Below, piece after piece: positions 38,671 to 48,734 of a stretch of 64,000 nucleotides of DNA (within the stretch, counting starts at the first letter, position 1; the number at the start of each line of letters is the position of its first letter). This DNA is from Haloactinopolyspora alba (GTDB lineage: Bacteria > Actinomycetota > Actinomycetes > Jiangellales > Jiangellaceae). The notes under the pieces were generated by a model. The model saw nothing but the letters and a program-made list of their open reading frames with translations, was not told the DNA's origin and made no database searches. A program made the position numbers and the translations under genes. The stretch spans positions 1 through 64,000 of the forward strand of contig NZ_PYGE01000013.1 in the NCBI RefSeq assembly GCF_003014555.1, in the 5' to 3' direction.

Positions 38671-40410
38671 ATGGACGTCCGCAGCACCATCCGGAACACG
38701 CTCGCCCTGGCTGCGGCCGGGCTCACGCTCACCACCGCCGGCCTCGCCGCCGCGCCCGGCATGCCCGCCGCCGCGACACCGGCGTCCGACGCACCCGCAC
38801 GACCGGCCGCTCAGGTACAGGCCCCGGTGCCGGAGCTGAACTGGAAGCCGTGCGAAGAAGGGCTGGAAGCGTTCCTGTGCACGACGGCCGAGGTTCCCAC
38901 CGACTACGACCGTCCGGACGGCCCGACCACCACGATCGCGCTGACGAAGCTGCCCGCCACCGACCCGGACGCACGCATCGGCACGTTGTTCACGAACCCG
39001 GGCGGACCTGGCGGGTCGGGCGTCGATTTCGTCCACACCCGCGGCCGGACCGCCTACACCGACGACGTCCGCGCCCACTTCGACATCCTCGGTTTCGATC
39101 CCCGGGCGGTGCACCGCTCCGATCCCGCGACCTGCTACCGGACACCTGAGCAGGAGCAGCGTGAGCTGGCACGACACCCCGCGTTCCCGGTCACCGCCGA
39201 GGAGGAGAACGACTACCTCGGGTTGAACGCACGGCTCGGAGCCGACTGCCGCCGCACCTCTCCCGAGCGGTTCGCGCACTCGTCGACGGCCAACGTGGCG
39301 CGCGACATGGACCTGCTGCGCCAAGCGGTCGGCGACGAGAAGCTCACCTACATGGGGTACTCCTACGGCACCCTGCTCGGCGCGACGTACGCACGGCTGT
39401 TCCCCGGCCGGGTCCGCGCACTCGCCCTGGACGGCACCGTCGTCCCGGAGGACTACACCGGCCGCCCGGGCGAGGAGACCTCGTCCGTCGGCGCGCGGAT
39501 GCGTCAGGGCCACGGAGCCGCCGAAACGTTCGACGAGTTTCTTCGGCTCTGTGCCGAGGCCGGCCCACGACGCTGCGCGCTGGCAGCGTTGGGTGAGCCG
39601 CGAACGGTGGTCGAGCGGACCTTCGACCGGCTGAAGGACGAGTCCGTGCGTATCGTCACGCCGAACGGCACCGAGCTCGTCGTCGACTACCCGACGGCCG
39701 TCGCACTGACATTCAGCGGCCTGTACGACCCCGCCGCCTGGACCGGACTTGCCGGCCTGCTCGCACAGTTGGCCACCGCGGAACCTCAGATGACCGGTGC
39801 GGCTGCCGCGCTGGTGGAGCAGGTCGTGCCGCAACGTGACCGGCCTCCCCGGCGCGGGGCCGACTACGCGTCCGTCGGCGGCTCGCTGGCCTCGTTGTGC
39901 GTCGACGGTGGCACCACCGGCGAGCCGTTCGCGTACCCGGAGATGGTCGACGACGTCGCCGCCGACGCTGCGCACTTCGGCCGGTACCGGGCGTGGGTCG
40001 GCGTGCAGTGCGAGTTCCTGCGCGTGACCGACGAGGACGCCTACGTCGGCCCGTGGGACCAGCAGGTCGACGAGCCGGTGCTGGTCATCGGCACCCGGTA
40101 CGACCCCGCCACGCCGTACGACGGCACCAGCCGGTACGCGGCGCACTTCCCGGATGCGCGGACGATGACGGTCGAGGGGTACGGGCACACCGTCCTGGGC
40201 AAGAGCCGCTGCGCGGACCGGGTGATCAGCAACTACCTGGTCCGGCTGGACGCGCCCGCCGACGGCTCTACCTGCGGCCAGGACGTGCCACCGTTCCAGG
40301 CTCCCGGCGCCCGCGCGCGGCGACCGCTGACCGTTCCGCCCCTGCCGCCCTTGATCATCAACGGTATGCCACAACATGGTGTGGTCTTATTTCACACGCC
40401 TAGTAGCTGA
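38671..40410 (+). CDS. Secreted alpha/beta-hydrolase peptidase (TAP/SlpD type), 3' end rewritten by an insertion
   Basis: A 579-residue exported serine peptidase. A signal peptide (TLALAAAGLTLTTAGLAAAPG) is followed by TLFTNPGGPGGSG (oxyanion region), the nucleophile elbow MGYSYGTLLGATYA, a late Asp (GTRYDPATP) and His (VEGYGHTVLG). This is the tripeptidyl aminopeptidase-like family. The family body ends near CGQDVPPF; the following tail crosses the left junction of the integrated element, so the last 8 residues come from the element. Without it the frame would end GMPQHGVGNR. The enzyme itself is probably intact. Confidence 0.85.
   Translation: MDVRSTIRNTLALAAAGLTLTTAGLAAAPGMPAAATPASDAPARPAAQVQAPVPELNWKPCEEGLEAFLCTTAEVPTDYDRPDGPTTTIALTKLPATDPDARIGTLFTNPGGPGGSGVDFVHTRGRTAYTDDVRAHFDILGFDPRAVHRSDPATCYRTPEQEQRELARHPAFPVTAEEENDYLGLNARLGADCRRTSPERFAHSSTANVARDMDLLRQAVGDEKLTYMGYSYGTLLGATYARLFPGRVRALALDGTVVPEDYTGRPGEETSSVGARMRQGHGAAETFDEFLRLCAEAGPRRCALAALGEPRTVVERTFDRLKDESVRIVTPNGTELVVDYPTAVALTFSGLYDPAAWTGLAGLLAQLATAEPQMTGAAAALVEQVVPQRDRPPRRGADYASVGGSLASLCVDGGTTGEPFAYPEMVDDVAADAAHFGRYRAWVGVQCEFLRVTDEDAYVGPWDQQVDEPVLVIGTRYDPATPYDGTSRYAAHFPDARTMTVEGYGHTVLGKSRCADRVISNYLVRLDAPADGSTCGQDVPPFQAPGARARRPLTVPPLPPLIINGMPQHGVVLFHTPSS
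40348..40384. other. Left attachment site (attL) of the integrated element
   Basis: CCCTTGATCATCAACG (40348-40363) is the left arm of the split host hairpin, and ATGGTGTGG (40376-40384) is the sequence shared with the right end. It lies inside the 3' end of the peptidase gene. The exact crossover inside the shared 9 bases cannot be fixed. Confidence 0.7.
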
Positions 40411-40430
40411 CCTGCAAAAACACGACCCAC

Positions 40431-40458
40431 GGCCCGCCACTTGTCCCGGTGGCGGGCC
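40431..40458. terminator. Hairpin near the left end of the element
   Basis: GGCCCGCCAC pairs with GTGGCGGGCC around 8 bases. It follows the regulator gene (minus strand) and the peptidase stop (plus strand), so it may terminate both. Nearly the same hairpin sequence recurs at 41745-41775. Confidence 0.65.
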
Positions 40459-40470
40459 TCTTCATGCGCT

Positions 40471-40641
40471 CTACTCCCCGTCGTCGCGCGGAGCCTCCAC
40501 GGCCTGGCGATAGTGCTCAAGCGCCGTCATCAACAAACCGGAAATGGGCATGCGGTGTTGCTTGGCGTGCGCCATGGCCCAATCCCAGAGCGGCACGTCT
40601 TCCTCGCGGACGTAAATCGTCTTCTGCGGCACCTTAGGCAT
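40471..40641 (-). CDS. Ribbon-helix-helix-like small regulator
   Basis: A 56-residue protein, starting MPKVPQKTIYVREED and continuing with a helix-turn-helix-like stretch (MPISGLLMTALEHYRQAV). The basic strand followed by two helices is what ribbon-helix-helix DNA-binding proteins show, and it is commonly seen in small actinomycete plasmids and phages. It lies divergent to the small-gene unit at 40768. No ribosome site is visible: a TATAGT box lies 6 to 11 bases before the ATG, so the mRNA may be leaderless. Function inferred. Confidence 0.6.
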   Translation of the reverse strand: MPKVPQKTIYVREEDVPLWDWAMAHAKQHRMPISGLLMTALEHYRQAVEAPRDDGE

Positions 40642-40767
40642 ACTGTCACTATACCTTTACCTAAGTAGATATAAGTAGTACGTTGATCAGCACACATAAG
40701 ACGGTCCCGCCAGCCGACGTGACCGGCTGACGGGACCTCGACAGAGACCTAGCGAGGAGGTTCTGCC
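40642..40767. promoter_or_regulatory. Divergent control region of the left part of the element
   Basis: AT-rich sequence with two TAAGTAG-like units spaced about 11 bases (around 40661-40678), a plausible site for the ribbon-helix-helix protein. A hairpin at 40703-40737 (GGTCCCGCCAGCC with GGCTGACGGGACC, one mismatch) lies ahead of the ribosome site AGGAGG of the plus-strand unit. Confidence 0.45.
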
Positions 40768-40947
40768 GTGCCCACCAACGTACCGACACCTGCCCCTGAC
40801 AGCCCGCCAGACAGGCCCACAACGGCAGTCGCCATTGAAGCCGCCTTCCAAGCTCTGGACGACGCATCGGACGCGCTGGTGGAGCTTCGCCGGAATCTGC
40901 GCGTCGTACGTGACCTCGTGACCGCTCAGGGTGGTGATGAGTCGTGA
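40768..40947 (+). CDS. Small helical protein, unknown
   Basis: A 59-residue protein from GTG 40768, preceded by GAGGAGG at about 7 bases. A Pro-rich N-terminus (MPTNVPTPAPDSPPDRP) is followed by one amphipathic helix (AIEAAFQALDDASDALVELR). It resembles the short open frames common in actinomycete plasmids. Its stop overlaps the next start as GTGA. No function can be assigned. Confidence 0.55.
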   Translation: MPTNVPTPAPDSPPDRPTTAVAIEAAFQALDDASDALVELRRNLRVVRDLVTAQGGDES

Positions 40948-41108
40948 CGCGCTCGGACGCGCTTGCCCTGCTTGTTGGGCTGCTGCTCGCCATGGCCGTG
41001 ATCGTGGTTGTCGGCGTCGTCACCGACACCGGCCAGCCAGCGGAGGACGATCCCGCTTGGGACTGCCGCATCCACGGCAACGAGGTCTGCGGCGGGGGTG
41101 GTCGGTGA
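40944..41108 (+). CDS. Single-span small membrane protein
   Basis: A 54-residue protein from GTG 40944, overlapping the preceding stop by 4 bases. One transmembrane segment (ALALLVGLLLAMAVIVVVGV) is followed by an outward tail with two Cys (WDCRIHGNEVC), which could form a disulfide. Its stop overlaps the next start as TGATG. The tight coupling supports a real gene. It could be a membrane anchor or a superinfection-type protein, but this is unknown. Confidence 0.55.
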   Translation: MTRSDALALLVGLLLAMAVIVVVGVVTDTGQPAEDDPAWDCRIHGNEVCGGGGR

Positions 41109-41368
41109 TGATCCTCGCCGTTGTCCTCCGTGCCACCGTCGATGTTCCGGCGCATTGCTGGATCATCGAGGCTGAGCAAGAACCGGCCACGCTGCCCGAC
41201 ATCGCCAAGCGGACCGATCACACCGTGCTCGCCGTGCGGCCGGTGGCTGACGTTGATGCCGCCGACGCTGCCCTAGCCGTGGCTGGCCTCATGCGCACCG
41301 CCGAATGGCGCAATCTTGCCGACGGTGCCGACATCGCACCGATTACCGCTATGTCTGGGGTGAATTAA
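41108..41368 (+). CDS. Small protein, unknown
   Basis: An 86-residue protein from ATG 41108 (TGATG overlap with the preceding gene): MILAVVLRATVDVPAHCWII, then RTDHTVLAVRPVADVDAADA. It looks like a compact alpha-beta fold with no signal or membrane segment. Proteins of this kind occur in small actinomycete elements. The next gene begins 5 bases after its stop. Confidence 0.5.
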   Translation: MILAVVLRATVDVPAHCWIIEAEQEPATLPDIAKRTDHTVLAVRPVADVDAADAALAVAGLMRTAEWRNLADGADIAPITAMSGVN

Positions 41369-41372
41369 CCCA

Positions 41373-41702
41373 ATGTCGACGTATCAAGCCAGGCGACACC
41401 GGCCAGACGGCAAGTGCCCGAACTGGTGTGACGAAATCCCGAATCACATCGGCCCGCATTACAACTTCATTGGCAACATTGTTCTCACGAACCGGAAGCC
41501 CGATCCGATAGGCGGAATTCGCGGCGCGTCTGCATGGTTGCTCAATGTCAATTTGACCAGCGAAACCAGCTAGCCGGGTTTGCAACTCACCCTCGACTCG
41601 AAAGACGAACCGAAATTCTTCATCTCGGCATCGTTGACGTGGAGTGAGGCCAAAGAACTCGGGGAAATGCTGCTCAAGGCGGTTAAGAGGTACAGCAAAT
41701 GA
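41373..41702 (+). pseudogene. DUF6907-like protein interrupted by an in-frame TAG
   Basis: The frame from ATG 41373 reads MSTYQARRHRPDGKCPNWCD with the CPxWC...H start typical of DUF6907-like proteins. TAG at 41571-41573 stops it after 66 residues. Without changing frame it continues for 42 more codons with a good family-like C-terminus (LQLTLDSKDEPKFFISASL, SEAKELGEMLLKAVKRYS) to TGA at 41702. So a single amber codon splits one gene of ~109 codons. Decay, a sequencing error or readthrough are possible. Confidence 0.65.
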
Positions 41703-41744
41703 CGACACGTTCTAGGTTCGGCTAGCTGAGCCAGGCCACACCGA

Positions 41745-41775
41745 ACGGCCCGCCACTTGCCCGGTGGCGGGCCGT
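41745..41775 (+). terminator. Terminator of the plus-strand small-gene unit
   Basis: ACGGCCCGCCAC pairs perfectly with GTGGCGGGCCGT around 7 bases, 42 bases after the end of the DUF6907-like frame. It matches the hairpin at 40431-40458 in sequence. Confidence 0.8.
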
Positions 41776-41818
41776 TTCACGTTGTGCGGCCCTGTGCGCC
41801 TTGCTGACGGCATGACAG

Positions 41819-41846
41819 TGCCCCGCCGGACCTTCCCGGCGGGGCA
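41819..41846 (-). terminator. Terminator of the protease operon
   Basis: TGCCCCGCCGG pairs with CCGGCGGGGCA around 6 bases. It lies about 56 bases beyond the end of the minus-strand operon and faces the plus-strand terminator at 41745. Confidence 0.75.
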
Positions 41847-41901
41847 CCAGTGCCGCCGCGCCACATCGGGCGGCACAACATGAATACAACCACCAACCAC
41901 C

Positions 41902-42138
41902 CTAGGCGGCAGTGTCGTCGTCCGTCGATTCCTGCCGCTTGTGACGGCCCATATTCGAGAACACGCCTTGATCCCGCACGTTCTCACCGTCCGGCCCGTG
42001 CAACCGCGCACCTGGCTGGTCAATCGCCCTGCCATAGTCGTTCATCGGGTGACCGTCACTGGATTTCGCCGTACGCGGTTCGCCCAGCACGTCTTGCAAG
42101 GCTTCCGCCTGGCTCTGTTCGTGTTCCTGCTCACTCAT
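41902..42138 (-). CDS. Small hydrophilic protein after the protease
   Basis: A 78-residue, strongly polar protein: MSEQEHEQSQAEALQDVLGE, GHPMNDYGRAIDQPGARLHG, ending STDDDTAA. GGAGGT lies 8 bases before the ATG, and the start overlaps the protease stop as TAATG. It may assist the protease or act in assembly. No family recognised. Confidence 0.6.
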   Translation of the reverse strand: MSEQEHEQSQAEALQDVLGEPRTAKSSDGHPMNDYGRAIDQPGARLHGPDGENVRDQGVFSNMGRHKRQESTDDDTAA

Positions 42139-43079
42139 TAGCGTGTACCTCCAACTTGATTCGTGAATCCACGACCGTACGCGCGGGCACGAGCGTTCTC
42201 GATAATCTCACTCCGCTTATACGGTTCGTCCCAATACTGTTTCCGCTCTTCAACCGTAAGCTCGTTAGCAATCTGACGGTCCGACGTATCAAGCAACGCC
42301 TGGCCCCAGCCGTTTTGAATCAGTTCCCGTTCGGCAGCTTCAGTCTTCTCCCGTTCTTCCTTCCGCCGTTGCGCTTCCCGCTGTTCGGCTCGGTGTTGCC
42401 TGATCTTCGCCTCTTCGTCTTCCTTATTGAAGCCCAACGGCGACATCTCGGACTGCCGCCGAATCGTGACTTCCGTTTCCCAATGGGGCCGCTTGGCCGG
42501 TTTGCGCTTCAACGTGCCGAACGACAACGCCCCGCCAGGACGGGCACCGCTAGGACTGGACCTAGGTGAAGCGAACGACGGTTCAGTAAGCGCGAACGTG
42601 TACACCTGGCCAGAATCCTCGAACCGGGCCGAGTTAACCCTGGCTTCCTGATACACCGGCATCCCGGTTAGCGTGACTTCCTGAAGCGTGACCGATTTCG
42701 CAATCTGGAACTCGGAATCAACCGGGTCAGTGACGATGGTGTCTCGGCCAGGTTTGACCTCGATACCGACGCTGAACCCGTCGAGCCTGCCGTTCCGGAC
42801 TTGCTCAAGCGCACGATCACCTTCCGGCGTGTTGTCGATCCGAAACATGCCATACGCGCCGAACTCGGTGTTCTTGATGCTCAGCATCTCACCGATCCGC
42901 CGCTCCTTGTCATGATCAAGCACCAGCGGAATCGAGCCGGACCATTTCAGGCTGTCCGGCTCAAACAGCCACCATTGCGCATCCCTGCCACTGGTGCGCG
43001 CCTTCCGTCCCCAAGGAACGATCAGACCCGATACGGTGCGAGCCTTCTGATTGGCCCGGAACTCGGTTTTGATAGTCAT
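42138..43079 (-). CDS. HK97-type prohead protease with scaffold-like tail
   Basis: A 313-residue protein. Residues ~1-150 match the phage prohead-protease fold: ARTVSGLIVPWG, LVLDHDKERRIGEM (His56 likely catalytic), GRLDGFSVGIEV and KSVTLQEVTLTGMPVYQEA. Where these enzymes usually have a nucleophilic Ser, this one appears to have Thr136. Residues ~190-313 are highly charged and helical (EAKIRQHRAEQREAQRRKEE), like a scaffold. In phages it trims the capsid and scaffold during maturation, but no capsid gene is present here. Starts by ATGA overlap with the upstream gene. Confidence 0.8.
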   Translation of the reverse strand: MTIKTEFRANQKARTVSGLIVPWGRKARTSGRDAQWWLFEPDSLKWSGSIPLVLDHDKERRIGEMLSIKNTEFGAYGMFRIDNTPEGDRALEQVRNGRLDGFSVGIEVKPGRDTIVTDPVDSEFQIAKSVTLQEVTLTGMPVYQEARVNSARFEDSGQVYTFALTEPSFASPRSSPSGARPGGALSFGTLKRKPAKRPHWETEVTIRRQSEMSPLGFNKEDEEAKIRQHRAEQREAQRRKEEREKTEAAERELIQNGWGQALLDTSDRQIANELTVEERKQYWDEPYKRSEIIENARARAYGRGFTNQVGGTR

Positions 43080-43255
43080 GCTTTCGCCTTCCTTTGACGC
43101 GCCAATACCTGATCCCGGTGTTTGGCGTAATACTCCCGCGACATTGCCGCATCACACTCCCTACATTTCGACGCCAGCCCGTCTGTGCGGTAATCGTCCG
43201 GCGCAAAATCGGCCACTGGCAGATTCTCGCTGCATGCTGGACATTTCTTCGTCAT
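43076..43255 (-). CDS. Zinc-ribbon mini-protein
   Basis: A 59-residue protein with two Cys pairs (KKCPACSENLP and SKCRECDAAM) and a basic C-terminal helix (SREYYAKHRDQVLARQRK). This zinc ribbon with a YY-x-x-H-R tail is often found alone or ahead of HNH nucleases in actinophages; the nuclease part is absent. AGGCGGA lies just before ATG 43255. The stop overlaps the protease start by ATGA, so the two are coupled. Confidence 0.65.
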   Translation of the reverse strand: MTKKCPACSENLPVADFAPDDYRTDGLASKCRECDAAMSREYYAKHRDQVLARQRKAKA

Positions 43256-43285
43256 AATTCCGCCTTTCTTCAACGAATCGGGCAT

Positions 43286-43812
43286 TTCTTTGGGCTATTT
43301 TGAATGATTCCGCCTTTCTGTCGACAATCTTGAAGCGCTCGTAAGCTTCTCACCAGTAAAAACGCGCTTCCGGAGAAAGAGAACAAGGGGCAATCACCGC
43401 CCCGACTCGAAAGGTCAAGGGAAAAAACGACCCCCGAATCCCCGTCGGTGCATTCTTGCATTCTCCATTCCTGTTCGCATTCCTCGAATCGGTCAACCGG
43501 AATGCGCCGACCGAACCATTCCCTTTGTCCATCTTTGCCTCATTCGTTTGTGCATTCTCATTCGGCTCGGTGCTCGGTGCGGCGGAGTGGGCGGGGGTCG
43601 GCCGGAGATGCCCGCCAGGGTGGTTGGCTGGCGTGGCCGGGGGTCCGGCCAGACGGGGAGGGGGCAAGCCAGCCAGGCGGGGCGCGTGTGTGGCTCTGTG
43701 TGGGGCGTGTGCGGCCTGCCACGGGTAGGGGTGGCCCGTGTGGGCCGCCCCACCCGGGGGTGGCGGTCCAGCCAGGCTGGCGTGTGCTCGCACGGCGGGC
43801 GGGGGGCATGCT
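43286..43812. other. Non-coding region of the element with strong strand bias
   Basis: No convincing gene. The first part (43257-43321) has two copies of ATTCCGCCTTTCT, 52 bases apart, the near one being the ribosome site of the zinc-ribbon gene. About 43450-43490 there is a cluster of CATTC words. From ~43575 to ~43810 the plus strand is extremely G-rich, with repeated CCAGCCAGG, GGGG and GTGTG words, giving proline-rich nonsense frames on the other strand. It could be a control or packaging region. Confidence 0.5.
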
Positions 43813-44022
43813 TCAACCCCCGGCCCGTTCTGCGGCTTGCTGGTCCGCCAACCGGTTCGCGGCTGCGGCTACAGCAAGCAATGCGTGCACAATGGCGCGA
43901 TCCCGGTTGTCGTCGGGAATCGGCAGAATCTCTTCGCCACCCATGGTGGGTGGTGTGATCAGCTTGCGCGCATTCTCGTAATGCTCGTGATACACGTCCT
44001 CGTTCACTTTGTCGTCAAACAT
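43813..44022 (-). CDS. Small acidic protein, unknown
   Basis: A 69-residue protein: MFDDKVNEDVYHEHYENARK, PTMGGEEILPIPDDNRDRA, then an Ala-rich helix ending DQQAAERAGG. GGAGCG lies upstream of ATG 44022. The start overlaps the 3' end of the preceding gene by 8 bases, a sign of coupling. No family is recognised; a longer frame reaching to 44217 would overlap the neighbour and is less likely. Confidence 0.55.
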   Translation of the reverse strand: MFDDKVNEDVYHEHYENARKLITPPTMGGEEILPIPDDNRDRAIVHALLAVAAAANRLADQQAAERAGG

Positions 44023-44344
44023 TGGCGCGCGCTCCATTCCCGCTTTGCGTGGCTGGATTGTCGGTGTGCTTGGAGCATGGCCGGTAGTTACGGCATGGCC
44101 TACCAGTGGTCGACGTTGGCGCGCCGCAGAGCATGCCCAAGCGCTCAAGGTATTCGCGTGGCAAGCGACCTTCACGCTCGTGTATCGCGCCGTGGTGGCA
44201 ACCGTTGACCGCACCATGCGCGCAATCGGGGCACTGGCATTTCACCAACCACGGCCAGGCGTTGCCGTCGGCATCGATGACATGTGCAATCCAGTATTCG
44301 TTATCCAGCTCCGCCGCTGTGTTCCAATCTGGCTTTGCGCTCAT
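44015..44344 (-). CDS. Cys/His-rich putative zinc-binding protein
   Basis: A 109-residue protein with many metal ligands: CQCPDCAHGAVNGCHH and CGAPTSTTGRPCRNYRPCSKH. The second resembles the C-x-T-x-x-G-x-PC-x-x-x-x-C zinc motif seen in small phage and plasmid proteins. It may bind DNA or mediate protein contacts. It follows the initiator-like gene on the same strand after a gap of about 100 bases with a hairpin. No named family. Confidence 0.55.
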   Translation of the reverse strand: MSAKPDWNTAAELDNEYWIAHVIDADGNAWPWLVKCQCPDCAHGAVNGCHHGAIHEREGRLPREYLERLGMLCGAPTSTTGRPCRNYRPCSKHTDNPATQSGNGARANV

Positions 44345-44413
44345 GTCTGCATCCTTCCCGTGTAGATTTCCCGCTCAGGTGGCGAAGCCGCCGGGGCAAT
44401 GGCTGGCCACGAC

Positions 44414-44430
44414 CGGGCGCGAAGCGCCCG
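44414..44430 (-). terminator. Small hairpin after the initiator-like gene
   Basis: CGGGCGC-GAA-GCGCCCG, a 7-bp stem with a 3-base loop, lies 16 bases beyond the stop of the initiator-like gene. It may be a weak terminator separating it from the next small genes. Confidence 0.5.
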
Positions 44431-44445
44431 AGGGGTTCTAACTGT

Positions 44446-45207
44446 CTAATCGCCTTCATCGATAATCATTTCTTCAGGATCACTGGGTAACGTCTCCAAC
44501 GTCTGCCTTAGGAAACCGACCGGGTATTTAACCTGTTTGGGCTTTTGGTCCCGGTCAAGCTGCCAGCCCAGCATTTCGCCTTCCCAGCCACCGTCGGCTA
44601 GCCGCTTCAACTCTCGCCGAATATCCGGATGGTTGATGTTCGCTTCCGGCATCCACTTCTCCGCGAAAAAGGCAAGCATCTTTTCTTCTGCGGTTGGCTT
44701 CCCGAGTGCTTCGCCAGGCTTGCCGTTCTCGCGCGTGCGCGCCCCCGCGCGTGCGCGCCCCTCCTCCTCCGTCGGAGGTGGGAGGTCGTGATCCCTGCGG
44801 GGGTCACCGTCGGGGTCACCGTCAGGGTCACCGTCGTTGTGACGGTGGTCCCTGCGGGGGTCACCGTCAGCTTCCACGGTGGTCCCTGCGGGGGTCACCG
44901 TCACAACCGGGATCGTGAGCCGATAGACCACTGTCCGGCCACGTCCGCGCGTCCCGGTTTCGGTCAGCCAGCCGTGCGCGGCTAGAAACTCATCGACGCG
45001 GCGAACGGTTTCGCGTTTGTATCCGAGACGTTGCGCTATCGCCTGTTTCGAGATGAAACAGTTTGTGCCGTTCGGATTCGCATGCAGAACGCGCGCGACG
45101 GCTACGGAGAGAATGACGCCGTGTTGTGGCCCGTCTTCGATTTCCTCAAGCCAGCCGTATAGGTACCTCAGCCAGGTAACGACGATGGCCTTGTTCCTGC
45201 CGCTCAT
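44446..45207 (-). CDS. Replication-initiator-like helix-turn-helix protein
   Basis: A 253-residue protein. Residues ~1-100 form a winged helix-turn-helix (CFISKQAIAQRLGYKRETVRRVDEFLAAHGWL), as in phage O-type and plasmid initiators. Residues ~110-150 hold an Asp/Gly/Arg linker (DGDPDGDPDGDPRRDH) encoded by DNA repeats. The C-terminal part (EEKMLAFFAEKWMPEANI ... YPVGFLRQTLE) resembles DnaD/primosome-like ends. Iterons inside the gene suggest it starts replication at its own coding sequence. The start overlaps the upstream zinc-ribbon stop by ATGA. Confidence 0.65.
   Translation of the reverse strand: MSGRNKAIVVTWLRYLYGWLEEIEDGPQHGVILSVAVARVLHANPNGTNCFISKQAIAQRLGYKRETVRRVDEFLAAHGWLTETGTRGRGRTVVYRLTIPVVTVTPAGTTVEADGDPRRDHRHNDGDPDGDPDGDPRRDHDLPPPTEEEGRARAGARTRENGKPGEALGKPTAEEKMLAFFAEKWMPEANINHPDIRRELKRLADGGWEGEMLGWQLDRDQKPKQVKYPVGFLRQTLETLPSDPEEMIIDEGD
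44792..44902. repeat. Iterons inside the initiator-like gene (candidate replication origin)
   Basis: Five GGGTCACCGTC units lie at about 44801, 44813, 44825, 44858 and 44892; three of them are extended to TCCCTGCGGGGGTCACCGTC. The first three are spaced 12 bases apart and an inverted unit (GTGACGGT) sits between the groups. Iterons within an initiator gene are how lambda-type origins are built. Confidence 0.6.
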
Positions 45208-45359
45208 CGATAATCGCCCGGCCTTCTTCCAGCGGCGTATTTATCGAAATGCGCCGTGGTCTTTTTCCGGGGATCACAGTTGGCGCAATAGGCGTACTGG
45301 CGGCACGGTGCGCCACACTTCCGACACTGGCGGGCGAATTTGGCTTGCTTGCGAGACAT
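45204..45359 (-). CDS. Zinc-ribbon mini-protein upstream of the initiator
   Basis: A 51-residue basic protein: MSRKQAKFARQCRKCGAPCR, then QYAYCANCDPRKKTT. The four to five Cys (CxxC...C...CxxC) form a likely zinc ribbon. The stop overlaps the initiator start by ATGA. It is probably a DNA-binding helper, based only on charge and context. Confidence 0.55.
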   Translation of the reverse strand: MSRKQAKFARQCRKCGAPCRQYAYCANCDPRKKTTAHFDKYAAGRRPGDYR

Positions 45360-45453
45360 CACGCGCCACCCGCGCAACGGTGCGCTAGGGTTGGTGGTAT
45401 TGCTCCCCCGTTGGTCCGCCGTCTCCTCCGAAGCGGCGGGCCTTCCTTTGCCC

Positions 45454-45768
45454 TCATGCGGCCGAATCCGTGTTCGTCTCGGCCGGGGGTAGCAGGGCGC
45501 GCAACCGCTCGATGTTCTCGGGGGTCAGTTCGCCAGCACGGTTCACGACGCGTTCAACCCATGCATCGAGCGACTGACCCTTCTTACCGATGCTCTGCAT
45601 GTGTTCGCGCTTGAGCTGTTGTGCACGCCGTGCGCGTTCCTGAGGACTCAGCCGCCCGTCTGGGTCGGCTTCCTGCTCGAAACGCTGCATGAATGCGTCA
45701 CGCGCCGGTTGGGTGTTCTTCGCGCGGCGCTCACGGGTATTCGGGGCATTCCCAGCCAACGGGCACAC
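45454..45768 (-). CDS. Small helical protein of the initiator operon
   Basis: A 104-residue charged protein: NTRERRAKNTQPARDAFMQR, then ARRAQQLKREHMQSIGKKGQ, then a C-terminal helix DAWVERVVNRAGELTPENIE. The motif RERRAKNTQPARDAF is familiar from actinomycete plasmid and prophage small proteins with no known role. The start is probably the GTG at 45768 or a nearby one; no clear ribosome site is seen. It is the first gene of the minus-strand operon. Confidence 0.6.
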   Translation of the reverse strand: MCPLAGNAPNTRERRAKNTQPARDAFMQRFEQEADPDGRLSPQERARRAQQLKREHMQSIGKKGQSLDAWVERVVNRAGELTPENIERLRALLPPAETNTDSAA

Positions 45769-45988
45769 TCCACGTGTGAGAAGTGCGCCTCACTTTCTAG
45801 TTGGGGGTCAACCCGGGCTGAGGCGATACTGACCAGCTTGAATCACTGGTCGACCCTACGGCCGCAACACCCTGTCGTGTTCGCCGCTGCACGGAGTCTC
45901 GGCCCACCTATGATGATGGTCCTTACTCACGACCCACAAACAACGCTAACCGCTGTCAGGCTGAGCGCCAATACCCGAACAGAGAAAT

Positions 45989-46028
45989 GCCCAAGTCTTA
46001 GGCAAAGGGAAACGCCTAAGACTTGGGC
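45989..46028 (-). terminator. Terminator of the integrase gene
   Basis: GCCCAAGTCTTAGGC pairs perfectly with GCCTAAGACTTGGGC around 10 bases, 14 bases after the integrase stop. It separates the integrase from the initiator operon, whose promoter must lie in 45769-45988; I see no gene there. Confidence 0.8.
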
Positions 46029-46042
46029 AGAGCGATTGTGTG

Positions 46043-47491
46043 TCAGTCCTGCTCACGCCGGAAGATGATCCGATCCTCAATCGGAACTATCACGTTCCGT
46101 GCGTGCTTACGTGTGATCCGTGCCTCACCAAGGATGGCAGGCGTGAATAGCAGCGCCGCAACTTCCCGCTTGGCGGGCACCGACGCAGCCGCCCAGCGCC
46201 GCGCGACATCTTCGCCGGGGCCTACCAGGTCCCGCAGAGCCGACGGCGTCGACAACTCCCGTAGACGCGCCTCAGCAGCCTTCACACGCTCGGTGATCCT
46301 CACGTCACGACGCTTGGCGAACTCAACCGAAATATCCATGTCGTCGGCCAGGGCGCGGCGCTCACCATCGAGACGGGCAATCTCGGCGCGTAGCGACGAT
46401 GCCTCCGTGTCGTCCGTCTCGCGCGTGAGCTGTTCCCCCCGGTGCGGATCACTCAGGTAGGCGAGGATCACGGTCTCAAGCTTGTCGTCCAGCTCAAGCT
46501 TGTCGATACCGCTCACGCACCCTTTACCGGCGCACCGATATTCGCCCGTGTCCTTGCGGTTATAGCTCAGCGTCAGACCGGAACCGCACACGTCGCACTT
46601 CACCGCACCACCGGTGAACTCATGCGTGAGCTTTCCAGCGTTCTTCGATGACCCCCGTCCGGGCGAGGAAATGATATCCTGGACGGCGCGCCACGTTTCC
46701 CGGTCAATGATGGCGGGCCAGTTGCCCTCATACTCTTCATCCTTATATTTCCGCAGAGCCGTATACGCGGGACGCGTCAGCATCTTTCGCAACGTCTGCT
46801 GCGTGAACACCTTCCCACTACGAGACCGGATACCACGCCGCTCGAAATCCCGCGAAATGGACGCAATGGTCTCTTTCGCCCGGACACGCTGAAACAGTTC
46901 CTCGATAACGCGCGCTTCATCCTCGACACGCTCAGTGCCGATAAGCTTGCCGGTATCGGAGTCGTAAACCTTCCGTAGCCCGTAGTTGGATTGACCGCCG
47001 TGCATCTTTCCCTTTTTGGCTGCTTTGGCCATGCCCCTACCCGTTTTCTGCTTGAGCTCCCAAATGAACTTCTCAGCGTTGTTCGCATTGCCTACCAAGT
47101 GGTGACGGTCGTTACCGTTGGTTGGGTCGTAAATCTGTTCGTCGTCCACGACGAATACGCGCTTACCCTGTTCGGCGAGCAAGTCGATAAGTAGAACCCA
47201 TTCACCGACTCGGCGGGAACCGCGCGAGGAATCGGTAATGATCAGAAGCTGATCGGTAAACCGGCCGTTCGTGAGGTCACCAATCAACTGGTCGTATCCC
47301 TCACGGGCCTTTGTGGCATGAATGGACGCCGAACGGTCGTTGTCCTCGTATCGCTCGGCGCTGAGCATGACGCCACGCTCGGCGCACGCCAGCCCGATGT
47401 CATCGAGCTGACCTTCAACCGACTGATCGTTGTTGCTGGAACAGCGGACGTAGGCGCGGCCGGTGAGCGTGTCTGCGGCTAGGATCGTCAT
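46043..47491 (-). CDS. Large serine recombinase (integrase)
   Basis: A 482-residue integrase. The N-terminal resolvase domain has RAYVRCSSNNDQSVEGQ (catalytic Ser) and LLIITDSSRGSRRVGEWVLLIDLL. A recombinase domain follows (MHGGQSNYGLRKVYD, FTQQTLRKMLTRPAYTALRKY). Next come a zinc ribbon (CDVCGSGLTLSYNRKDTGEYRCAGKGC) and a C-terminal coiled coil (SLRAEIARLDGERRALADDM). It is slightly short for the family but complete. It lies 68 bases from the right attachment site and very probably inserted the element. Excision usually needs a directionality factor; none is obvious. Confidence 0.9.
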   Translation of the reverse strand: MTILAADTLTGRAYVRCSSNNDQSVEGQLDDIGLACAERGVMLSAERYEDNDRSASIHATKAREGYDQLIGDLTNGRFTDQLLIITDSSRGSRRVGEWVLLIDLLAEQGKRVFVVDDEQIYDPTNGNDRHHLVGNANNAEKFIWELKQKTGRGMAKAAKKGKMHGGQSNYGLRKVYDSDTGKLIGTERVEDEARVIEELFQRVRAKETIASISRDFERRGIRSRSGKVFTQQTLRKMLTRPAYTALRKYKDEEYEGNWPAIIDRETWRAVQDIISSPGRGSSKNAGKLTHEFTGGAVKCDVCGSGLTLSYNRKDTGEYRCAGKGCVSGIDKLELDDKLETVILAYLSDPHRGEQLTRETDDTEASSLRAEIARLDGERRALADDMDISVEFAKRRDVRITERVKAAEARLRELSTPSALRDLVGPGEDVARRWAAASVPAKREVAALLFTPAILGEARITRKHARNVIVPIEDRIIFRREQD

Positions 47492-47559
47492 TGCTGGTGC
47501 TCCCTGTCACTTGGCGGTGTTGGGAGCACCCGTCTACATGACTAGAACAAGCTCGGTCT

Positions 47560-47589
47560 ATGGTGTGGGAAATCGTTGATGATCAAGGG
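47560..47589. other. Right attachment site (attR) of the integrated element
   Basis: ATGGTGTGG (47560-47568) repeats the left-end sequence. CGTTGATGATCAAGGG (47574-47589) is the exact reverse complement of the arm at 40348-40363. It lies 38 bases before the first lipoprotein gene. Confidence 0.7.
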
Positions 47590-47627
47590 AAAGCAGCGGC
47601 GCGTTCGGCAGTAGGGAGGCGAACCGT

Positions 47628-48131
47628 ATGCGGGTACGGCGTGATGCCGTCGTCGTCAGCATCGCCGTCTTCGCCGGCCTCGGCCTGACCGCCTGCACCA
47701 GCGAACCGAGCCTGAACGAGATCGCGCCCCGGTTCGAGCAGGACGCCAACGAGGTGTTCGAAGAACTCGCCGACGACTACAGCGCCGATCCGGAGGCCGC
47801 CGAGATCACGAACGACGGCAGCGAGAACGTCCCGTGCGACGACGGCGCCCGACGCGAGTTCGTGGGGACCTTCCCCATGATCGAAGGTGACCCCGACAAC
47901 ACCCTGGATGGCTTCACCAACAACGTCATCACTGCAATATCGATCGATCACGACTACGAGATGGTCAGCGAGGGCGGCGGCAACTACACAGAAGACGGCT
48001 TGATGAGCGGGACCGAACGCACTGATTACGGCACCAACGAAGACGAGACGATCACGTTCGAGGTACACGCCGTCGCCGAACCTCCCCGACAGGTCACGTT
48101 TACCGGTGAAACCGCCTGCGCGGACACTTGA
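47628..48131 (+). CDS. Lipoprotein, tandem paralogue A
   Basis: A 167-residue lipoprotein. VVVSIAVFAGLGLTACTSEP gives a signal with lipobox LTAC. The mature part begins SLNEIAPRFEQDANEVFEEL and holds a pair of Cys (ENVPCDDGARREF ... ETACADT) likely to form a disulfide. No family is recognised. GGGAGG lies 9 bases before the ATG. It starts right beyond the element's right end. The next gene is a paralogue. Confidence 0.75.
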   Translation: MRVRRDAVVVSIAVFAGLGLTACTSEPSLNEIAPRFEQDANEVFEELADDYSADPEAAEITNDGSENVPCDDGARREFVGTFPMIEGDPDNTLDGFTNNVITAISIDHDYEMVSEGGGNYTEDGLMSGTERTDYGTNEDETITFEVHAVAEPPRQVTFTGETACADT

Positions 48132-48254
48132 TCGTTCCGGCATCCCATTCGTCACCGAAGATCCGGAGCAACACCGCAGTCGCGTGATCGGTTACTGTTC
48201 CGCTGGGACGTGATCCAGGAGCGCCGCTCGTCGGGCGGTACGGAGGTGGAGAGT

Positions 48255-48734
48255 ATGCGGCCGCGCCATGGTGCCGTCGTCGTCAGCATCGCCGTCGTCG
48301 CCGGCCTCGGCCTGACCGCCTGCACCAGCGAACCGAGCCTGAACGAGATCGGCCCCAAGTTCGAACAGGACGCCAACGAAGTGTTCGAAGAACTCATCGA
48401 CAGCTACAGCGCGAACACCGACGCCGCCGAGATCACCAACGACGGCAGCGAGAACATCCCCTGCGACGACGGCGCCCGACGCGAGTTCGATGCGACCTTC
48501 CCCATGATGGAAGGCGACCCGGAAAGCAACCTAGAGATCTTCACGCGAGCAGTCGTCGTGAGCTTCGAGAACAATCATGGTTACACCATGGTTGGCGACG
48601 ACTACCACTCCGGTACCGAACGCACCTACCGGGCCACGAACGAGGACGAGACGATCACGTTCGAGGTACACGCCACCGGTGAGCCCAACAGCGAGGTCAC
48701 CTTCACCGGCAAGACAACCTGCGCGAGCACCTGA
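48255..48734 (+). CDS. Lipoprotein, tandem paralogue B
   Basis: A 159-residue lipoprotein closely related to the gene before it, nearly identical through the signal and first 40 mature residues (lipobox LTAC, then SLNEIGPKFEQDANEVFEEL) and diverging after residue ~80, with both Cys kept. GGAGG precedes ATG 48255. The two arose by tandem duplication. They converge on an ESX-substrate-like gene, and the stops are only 13 bases apart. Function unknown. Confidence 0.75.
   Translation: MRPRHGAVVVSIAVVAGLGLTACTSEPSLNEIGPKFEQDANEVFEELIDSYSANTDAAEITNDGSENIPCDDGARREFDATFPMMEGDPESNLEIFTRAVVVSFENNHGYTMVGDDYHSGTERTYRATNEDETITFEVHATGEPNSEVTFTGKTTCAST

Follow-up and report, generated by a model that had tools for sequence, protein, structure and literature searches.

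The 64,000-nucleotide stretch of the Haloactinopolyspora alba genome analysed here (hereafter the window) carries a 7184-bp integrated element, which junction alignment delimits from AT to AT at positions 40376 to 47559. Very probably, this is a satellite-like element that integrated when its large serine integrase recombined the attP of the circular form with an attB at the centre of symmetry of a single copy of a dispersed repeat. As far as sequence comparison can tell, the target is a 50-bp palindromic repeat that occurs in tens of copies and throughout the family Jiangellaceae, and not one particular gene end.

A preliminary description of the window had placed a serine-integrase element in the loop of a hairpin, and this geometry was borne out. 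The junction repeat ATGGTGTGG stands at both ends of the element (40376-40384 and 47560-47568), and the arms CCCTTGATCATCAACG (40348-40363) and CGTTGATGATCAAGGG (47574-47589) are exact complements that form a perfect stem. Once joined, they give the 58-nt hairpin with a 26-nt loop that had been claimed, the integrase gene has its start codon (47491) at a distance of 68 bases from the right-hand ATGGTGTGG, and the 7.18-kb element entered the palindrome loop with its crossover contained in ATGGTGTGG. The loop of the joined hairpin pairs further (CCACA with TGTGG), and the 58 nt fold as one long hairpin of -37.8 kcal/mol (z = -9.3 against 200 shuffles). Within positions 40200-47750, the top inverted pair is the 30-nt repeat formed by the two arms, which are 87% complementary. 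The 50-bp core of the palindrome begins with TGATCA at 40352 and ends at 47585. Its left half, corresponding to the B arm, extends from 40348 through the last base of the 9-bp repeat at 40384, and its right half, the B' arm, from 47560 to 47589; both are recognized by the inverted arms and the hairpin fold, and the left half also by membership in the repeat family. Since the joined core belongs to a repeat family, and since two more elements split members of this family at the same base, the split palindrome is far beyond what chance would produce. When the same genome was searched with a half-site pattern for another split copy, only the pair at 40352 and 47574 was convincing among the places listed.

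The repeat family was delineated by several searches. A 232-bp query made from the joined flanks gave 30 matches in the H. alba genome and 69 in one genome of the genus Jiangella, both strands counted. The 30 matches comprise the two halves of the split copy and 28 further strand-matches, one of which falls on a neighbouring duplicated gene start (48211-48302) and another is the left half read on the opposite strand. Most matches to the joined query are 75-88% identical and extend over exactly the palindrome. Once trimmed and aligned, the copies measure 50 bp, from TGATCA to TGATCA, a length found exactly in 97 of 100 pattern matches, and their centre is AT in 88 of the 109 distinct copies read. 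A covariance model detected the repeat in 21 of the 22 Jiangellaceae genomes searched. This model counts each palindromic copy on both strands, and copy numbers are estimates because the number of scored candidates is capped: 58 strand matches in H. alba correspond to about 29 copies, and several other Jiangellaceae genomes have at least about 150 strand matches. Outside the family, in a class-wide sample, matches were obtained in 7 genomes only, with 1-2 each. The arms covary, with 10 pairs showing two-sided changes and a covariation score reached by none of 500 shuffles. Gene positions around the copies, taken from a simple home-made codon-usage gene finder, place none of 41 copies inside genes, and the 38 that could be classed include 19 between tandem, 15 between convergent, and 4 between divergent genes. 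Copies cluster at gene 3' ends, where the neighbouring gene often has the TGA of TGATCA as its stop codon.

Two related elements from other genera split copies of the same repeat. The first, from Jiangella muralis (L108/L112), is 8735 bp long and encodes an integrase 59% identical to that of the window; it is bounded by the halves of another palindrome copy (CCATGATCATCAACC.. and ..GGTTGATGATCATGG), and its genes include an HK97 capsid (PF05065, 4e-31) and a match to replication initiators. The second, from Phytoactinopolyspora endophytica (L109/L116), is about 7.42 kb long, with an integrase about 40% identical, and is bounded by the halves of a third copy (CCATGATCATCGAG.. and ..CTCGATGATCATGG). 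It encodes an HK97-fold capsid (PF05065, 7e-6) and an HTH_36 protein, in a gene list that is incomplete because part of the element consists of N (about 12560-13620 of L109). In both relatives, the insertion base is the dyad centre of the palindrome, the same base as in the window, and the palindrome copies used adjoin unrelated genes. In an IQ-TREE phylogeny of 48 integrases, in which L116 represents the same locus as L109, the integrases of the three elements form one clade (support 100/99) that excludes the other integrases from the same bacterial family. At 40-odd other integrase loci, two from the same bacterial family (L110, L111) and the rest from other actinobacteria and IMG/VR contigs (L113-L157), no split palindrome or long inverted arms were found. 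A single-sequence scan of genome contigs and viral contigs retrieved no integrase relatives, whereas an alignment-based scan did yield them. Searches of plasmids returned distant integrases only, and the closest phage match to the integrase is about 30% identical.

The cargo of the window element, all of it on the minus strand, is that expected of a small phage-derived element, as judged from its predicted products. The large serine integrase of 482 aa (46043-47491) has Resolvase (PF00239, 4e-17) and Recombinase (PF07508, 5e-16) domains, a zinc ribbon (PF13408) below cut-off, and a match to PHROG 95 (1.5e-67). A helix-turn-helix protein (44446-45207) resembles O-like phage replication initiators (PHROG 391, E 7e-8), with HTH_36 below cut-off, and a small open reading frame (ORF; 43076-43285) is endonuclease VII-like (PHROG 2340, E 7e-10). 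Finally, an HK97-type prohead protease (42138-43079) is identified by PF04586 (E 4e-12) and PHROGs 2263 and 80, as well as by TIGR01543 (2.4e-15) and NF045541 (6.6e-9), both below their cut-offs. It resembles the front part of the protease/major-capsid fusions of small Microbacterium and Arthrobacter phages, which match it over residues ~1-152 only. No capsid domain was detected in this protein, and no capsid gene, packaging gene, or tail gene was recognized elsewhere in the window element. A charged tail of about 160 aa occupies the place of the capsid domain in the protease. Considered together with the capsid genes of the two relatives, this cargo suggests packaging with phage help. It could alternatively be proposed that the three elements are remnants of full-length prophages that share an integrase, rather than satellites, as the window element has a protease without a capsid and lacks recognizable packaging and tail genes. 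This we regard as unlikely, if worth serious consideration: the elements come from three genera, have similar sizes (7.2, 8.7, and 7.4 kb) and intact integrase frames, as would a maintained small form, and they share a similar gene content (integrase, initiator-like or helix-turn-helix gene, head gene), like phiRv1 and other elements resembling phage-inducible chromosomal islands (PICIs).

Comparison of the three junction pairs also narrows the crossover point. The nine bases of ATGGTGTGG, which might have been taken for the functional core, do not stand as such: the cores of the Jiangella and Phytoactinopolyspora elements are ATAG and CAT, respectively, and the only dinucleotide common to all three at the same position is AT. 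We thus infer AT as the crossover dinucleotide, which in the window would be located at 40376-40377 in attL, at the dyad centre of the palindrome, and at 47560-47561 in attR. The motif TGACCTGCA starts 30 nt after this AT in all three elements; in the window it is found at 40408-40416, within the P' arm (40378-40416). The P arm (47518-47559) ends in ..CTACATGACTAGAACAAGCTCGGTCT, and its CTACATGACTAG is also present in the Jiangella element. The deduced attP contains ..CGGTCTATGGTGTGGTC.., and the predicted junction of the circle reads ..CGGTCT AT GGTGTGGTCTT... Mirror symmetry of the deduced attP is maximal at AT in each case (7, 9, and 12 of 14 positions). A crossover at TG/TA or GG/AG beside the centre, with normal orientation control, is distinctly improbable. 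What speaks for it is that the orientation of serine integration depends on the central dinucleotide (Ghosh 2003, Smith 2004, as cited in PMC3783163). In well-studied serine integrases, this dinucleotide is non-palindromic. Against it, the Phytoactinopolyspora junctions have only CAT in common, which excludes TG there, and the symmetry of attP peaks at AT in 3/3 elements. Under the preferred reading, the integrase would recombine a circular attP with the centre of a suitable palindrome copy, and each AT-centred copy, of which there are tens, could act as attB. Since both AT and the palindromic attB are symmetric, either orientation should be allowed, and insertions in both orientations are predicted. 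Excision would restore the palindrome.

The insertion site was initially described as the terminator of a host peptidase gene. This gene (38671-40410, plus strand; PF00561, PF08386) encodes an alpha/beta hydrolase of the TAP-like peptidase type, and its 3' end overlaps the palindrome. Its frame runs through the left arm, and the element supplies a new tail, such that the occupied site encodes an end in ..HGVVLFHTPSS* and the empty site one in ..HGVGNR*. At the empty site, the protein would end in ...PPLIINGMPQHGVGNR*, the stop codon being the TGA of CGTTGATGATCA in the right arm. The site is thus intergenic only in part. The term terminator is plausible as regards position, with a stable hairpin at a gene 3' end, but the U-tract is absent, the right arm being followed by AAAGCAGCGG; the palindrome copies may have a terminator-like role. 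The strong hairpin at the end of the peptidase gene, together with the clustering of family copies at gene ends and outside genes, could suggest that attB is unique and gene-specific, namely the gene's own terminator hairpin. This is very improbable, given the ~29 copies in the same genome and their presence in nearly all relatives, the orthologous peptidase loci that have no palindrome, and the use by related integrases of copies beside unrelated genes. Specificity of the hairpin for the peptidase gene is contradicted by these observations. The joined site was searched for in related genomes and was not intact at the peptidase locus of any of them. The preliminary description had counted unrelated sequence at this place in relatives as evidence against an insertion; such sequence was indeed encountered, as relatives' peptidase loci have no palindrome, but the insertion is not thereby refuted, since the target is dispersed and probably mobile, with empty copies elsewhere. 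That the 30-nt arms are instead the terminal inverted repeats of a transposon, as their inverted orientation at the element ends and their complementarity might suggest, is barely credible, given that intact element-free palindromes exist at many places, that the arms vary between elements with conserved internal att arms, that the element encodes as its recombinase a large serine integrase bearing the domains of phage integrases, and that the arms joined at the 9-bp repeat form a full-length member of the repeat family. The outer arms (AACGG, AACCTT, and TCGAG) vary among the elements as repeat copies do and the internal att arms are conserved, which argues that the palindrome belongs to the host.

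Several points nevertheless weigh against integration at the dyad centre of a dispersed repeat by a satellite-like element. Only three occupied palindrome copies were found, and the sole congener examined has no palindrome at this place, the empty site being deduced from intact copies elsewhere. A palindromic crossover is unusual among serine integrases, and makes orientation control puzzling. Any single element, taken alone, would permit a crossover a few bases off AT, and its placement rests on the position conserved across the elements. Finally, the window element, being devoid of a capsid gene, could be a prophage in decay and not a functional satellite.

The repeat itself is associated with another type of genetic unit. 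In Jiangella and Phytoactinopolyspora, palindrome pairs about 1.05 kb apart enclose a single gene, forming units of about 1.1 kb (L107 1459-2582 in genome G017, L166 2116-3224 in G013, L171 2404-3526 in G009, and others among L174-L203). The protein encoded, of about 315 aa, is AbiEi-like in its N-terminal part (PF13338; PADLOC AbiEi, 5e-25), with a fold match to the AbiEi antitoxin (6y8q, E 3e-7) and a weaker one to Rv2827c (1zel), and has a weak DUF559 match in its C-terminal part. Most of the close homologues (69-100% identical) whose flanks were read are flanked by the palindrome on both sides, and distant paralogues have no such flanking pairs. Among eight entries, of which two (L166 and L174) represent one unit, palindromes differ on average at 6.0 of 50 positions within a unit versus 15.5 between units, as if each unit protein went with its own palindrome. 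An orthologous place between genes whose sequences read as an F420-type oxidoreductase and a metG-like gene (L207-L217) is variably occupied among Jiangella: a 45-bp gap is found in G018 and G011, the unit in G017, G019, and G009, and an inverted unit in G007. In one of the three genomes with the same orientation, the unit gene is broken. This variation in presence and orientation at one orthologous place indicates that the target repeat family is probably itself mobile. It can be tentatively proposed, at somewhat below an even chance, that the palindrome is a mobile element spread by the flanked genes, encoding AbiEi-like proteins with a DUF559/Vsr-like nuclease part, and that the integrase of the satellite lineage evolved to read it, thereby gaining tens of interchangeable, orientation-free sites at gene ends. 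The H. alba genome harbors ~29 palindromes, yet its closest homologue of the unit gene is only 33% identical.

Other features were noted in and around the element. Of two further minus-strand ORFs, one of 78 aa (41902-42138) has no family match, and one of 104 aa (45454-45768) has no assigned function. Directly 3' of the integrase gene, an inverted repeat of 16 bp without mismatches, enclosing a loop of 10 nt (45988-46029), is possibly its terminator. GC-rich hairpins that are nearly identical (GGCCCGCCAC..GTGGCGGGCC) recur 1.3 kb apart at the element's left end, at 40429-40464 and 41744-41779, and are possibly copies of one terminator. The initiator-like gene contains two identical 28-bp direct repeats (44842-44903), with diverged copies at 44785 and 44797, and this short array is possibly iteron-like or a protein repeat. 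On the host side, a plus-strand lipoprotein-like gene (47628-48131) begins 38 bp past the palindrome; with its highly similar neighbour (48210-48734), it forms a tandem duplication to the right of the element.

Searches of the open-access literature revealed no account of this palindrome in Jiangellaceae, nor of any dispersed non-coding palindrome serving as the target of a serine integrase. The closest known case is phiRv1, likewise small and phage-like, which has a large serine integrase and is inserted in a repeated host sequence, namely REP13E12, a protein-coding repeat. By contrast, the target described here is a non-coding near-perfect palindrome of 50 bp that is present in tens of copies, and the crossover would fall on its axis of symmetry; the likeness to phiRv1 rests on element type and repeat target, not on integrase kinship. 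The phiRv1 element of M. tuberculosis is itself a small prophage-like element using REP13E12 through its serine integrase (PMC9317374), and is now counted among PICI-like elements (PMC10654092). Candidate PICIs are defined by an integrase plus a capsid (PMC10654092). With their 7-9 kb, integrase, initiator-like gene, and capsid or protease gene, the present elements resemble PICIs, capsid-forming PICIs (cf-PICIs), and mycobacterial candidate PICIs. Unlike cf-PICIs, the window element has no recognized capsid, only the protease, whereas its relatives (L108, L109) have the PF05065 capsid. The integrase shares with those of actinobacteriophages and of the A118/phiC31 type the resolvase, recombinase, and weak zinc-ribbon domains, a short common core, and a quasi-symmetric attP; it differs from them by a central dinucleotide that appears palindromic, and by its low identity (about 30%) to the best phage match.

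Two other systems built on palindromes are comparable. Insertion sequences such as IS1397 target repetitive extragenic palindromic (REP) sequences; likewise, a mobile element here uses a dispersed palindrome as its target, but through a phage-type serine integrase with attP and attB. Like REP sequences and the REPIN hairpins, the 50-bp repeats are dispersed intergenic palindromes at gene ends, some of which flank a gene that possibly drives them. REP/REPIN palindromes are described in PMC3733652 as having a GTAG or CGTC tag at one end. An identity with REPINs and their REP-associated tyrosine transposases (RAYTs) was rejected: this tag is absent, both consensus ends being TGATCA, the length is fixed at 50 bp, and the flanked gene is AbiEi-like and DUF559-like rather than a Y1 (HUH) transposase, although no genome-wide search for RAYTs was made.

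The usual picture of a serine integrase is one of specificity for a single site, with a non-palindromic central dinucleotide dictating orientation. The natural integrase lineage described here appears to recognize a symmetric, multi-copy attB and a symmetric AT core, and would thus constitute a natural test of orientation and site choice, as well as a possible tool for multi-site integration in actinobacteria. The search for split palindromes provides a rule for finding more such elements. As the two relatives from other genera are inserted in the same manner, elements of this lineage appear to target a repeat and not the end of a particular host gene, and such satellites would exploit a repeat that is apparently mobile itself.

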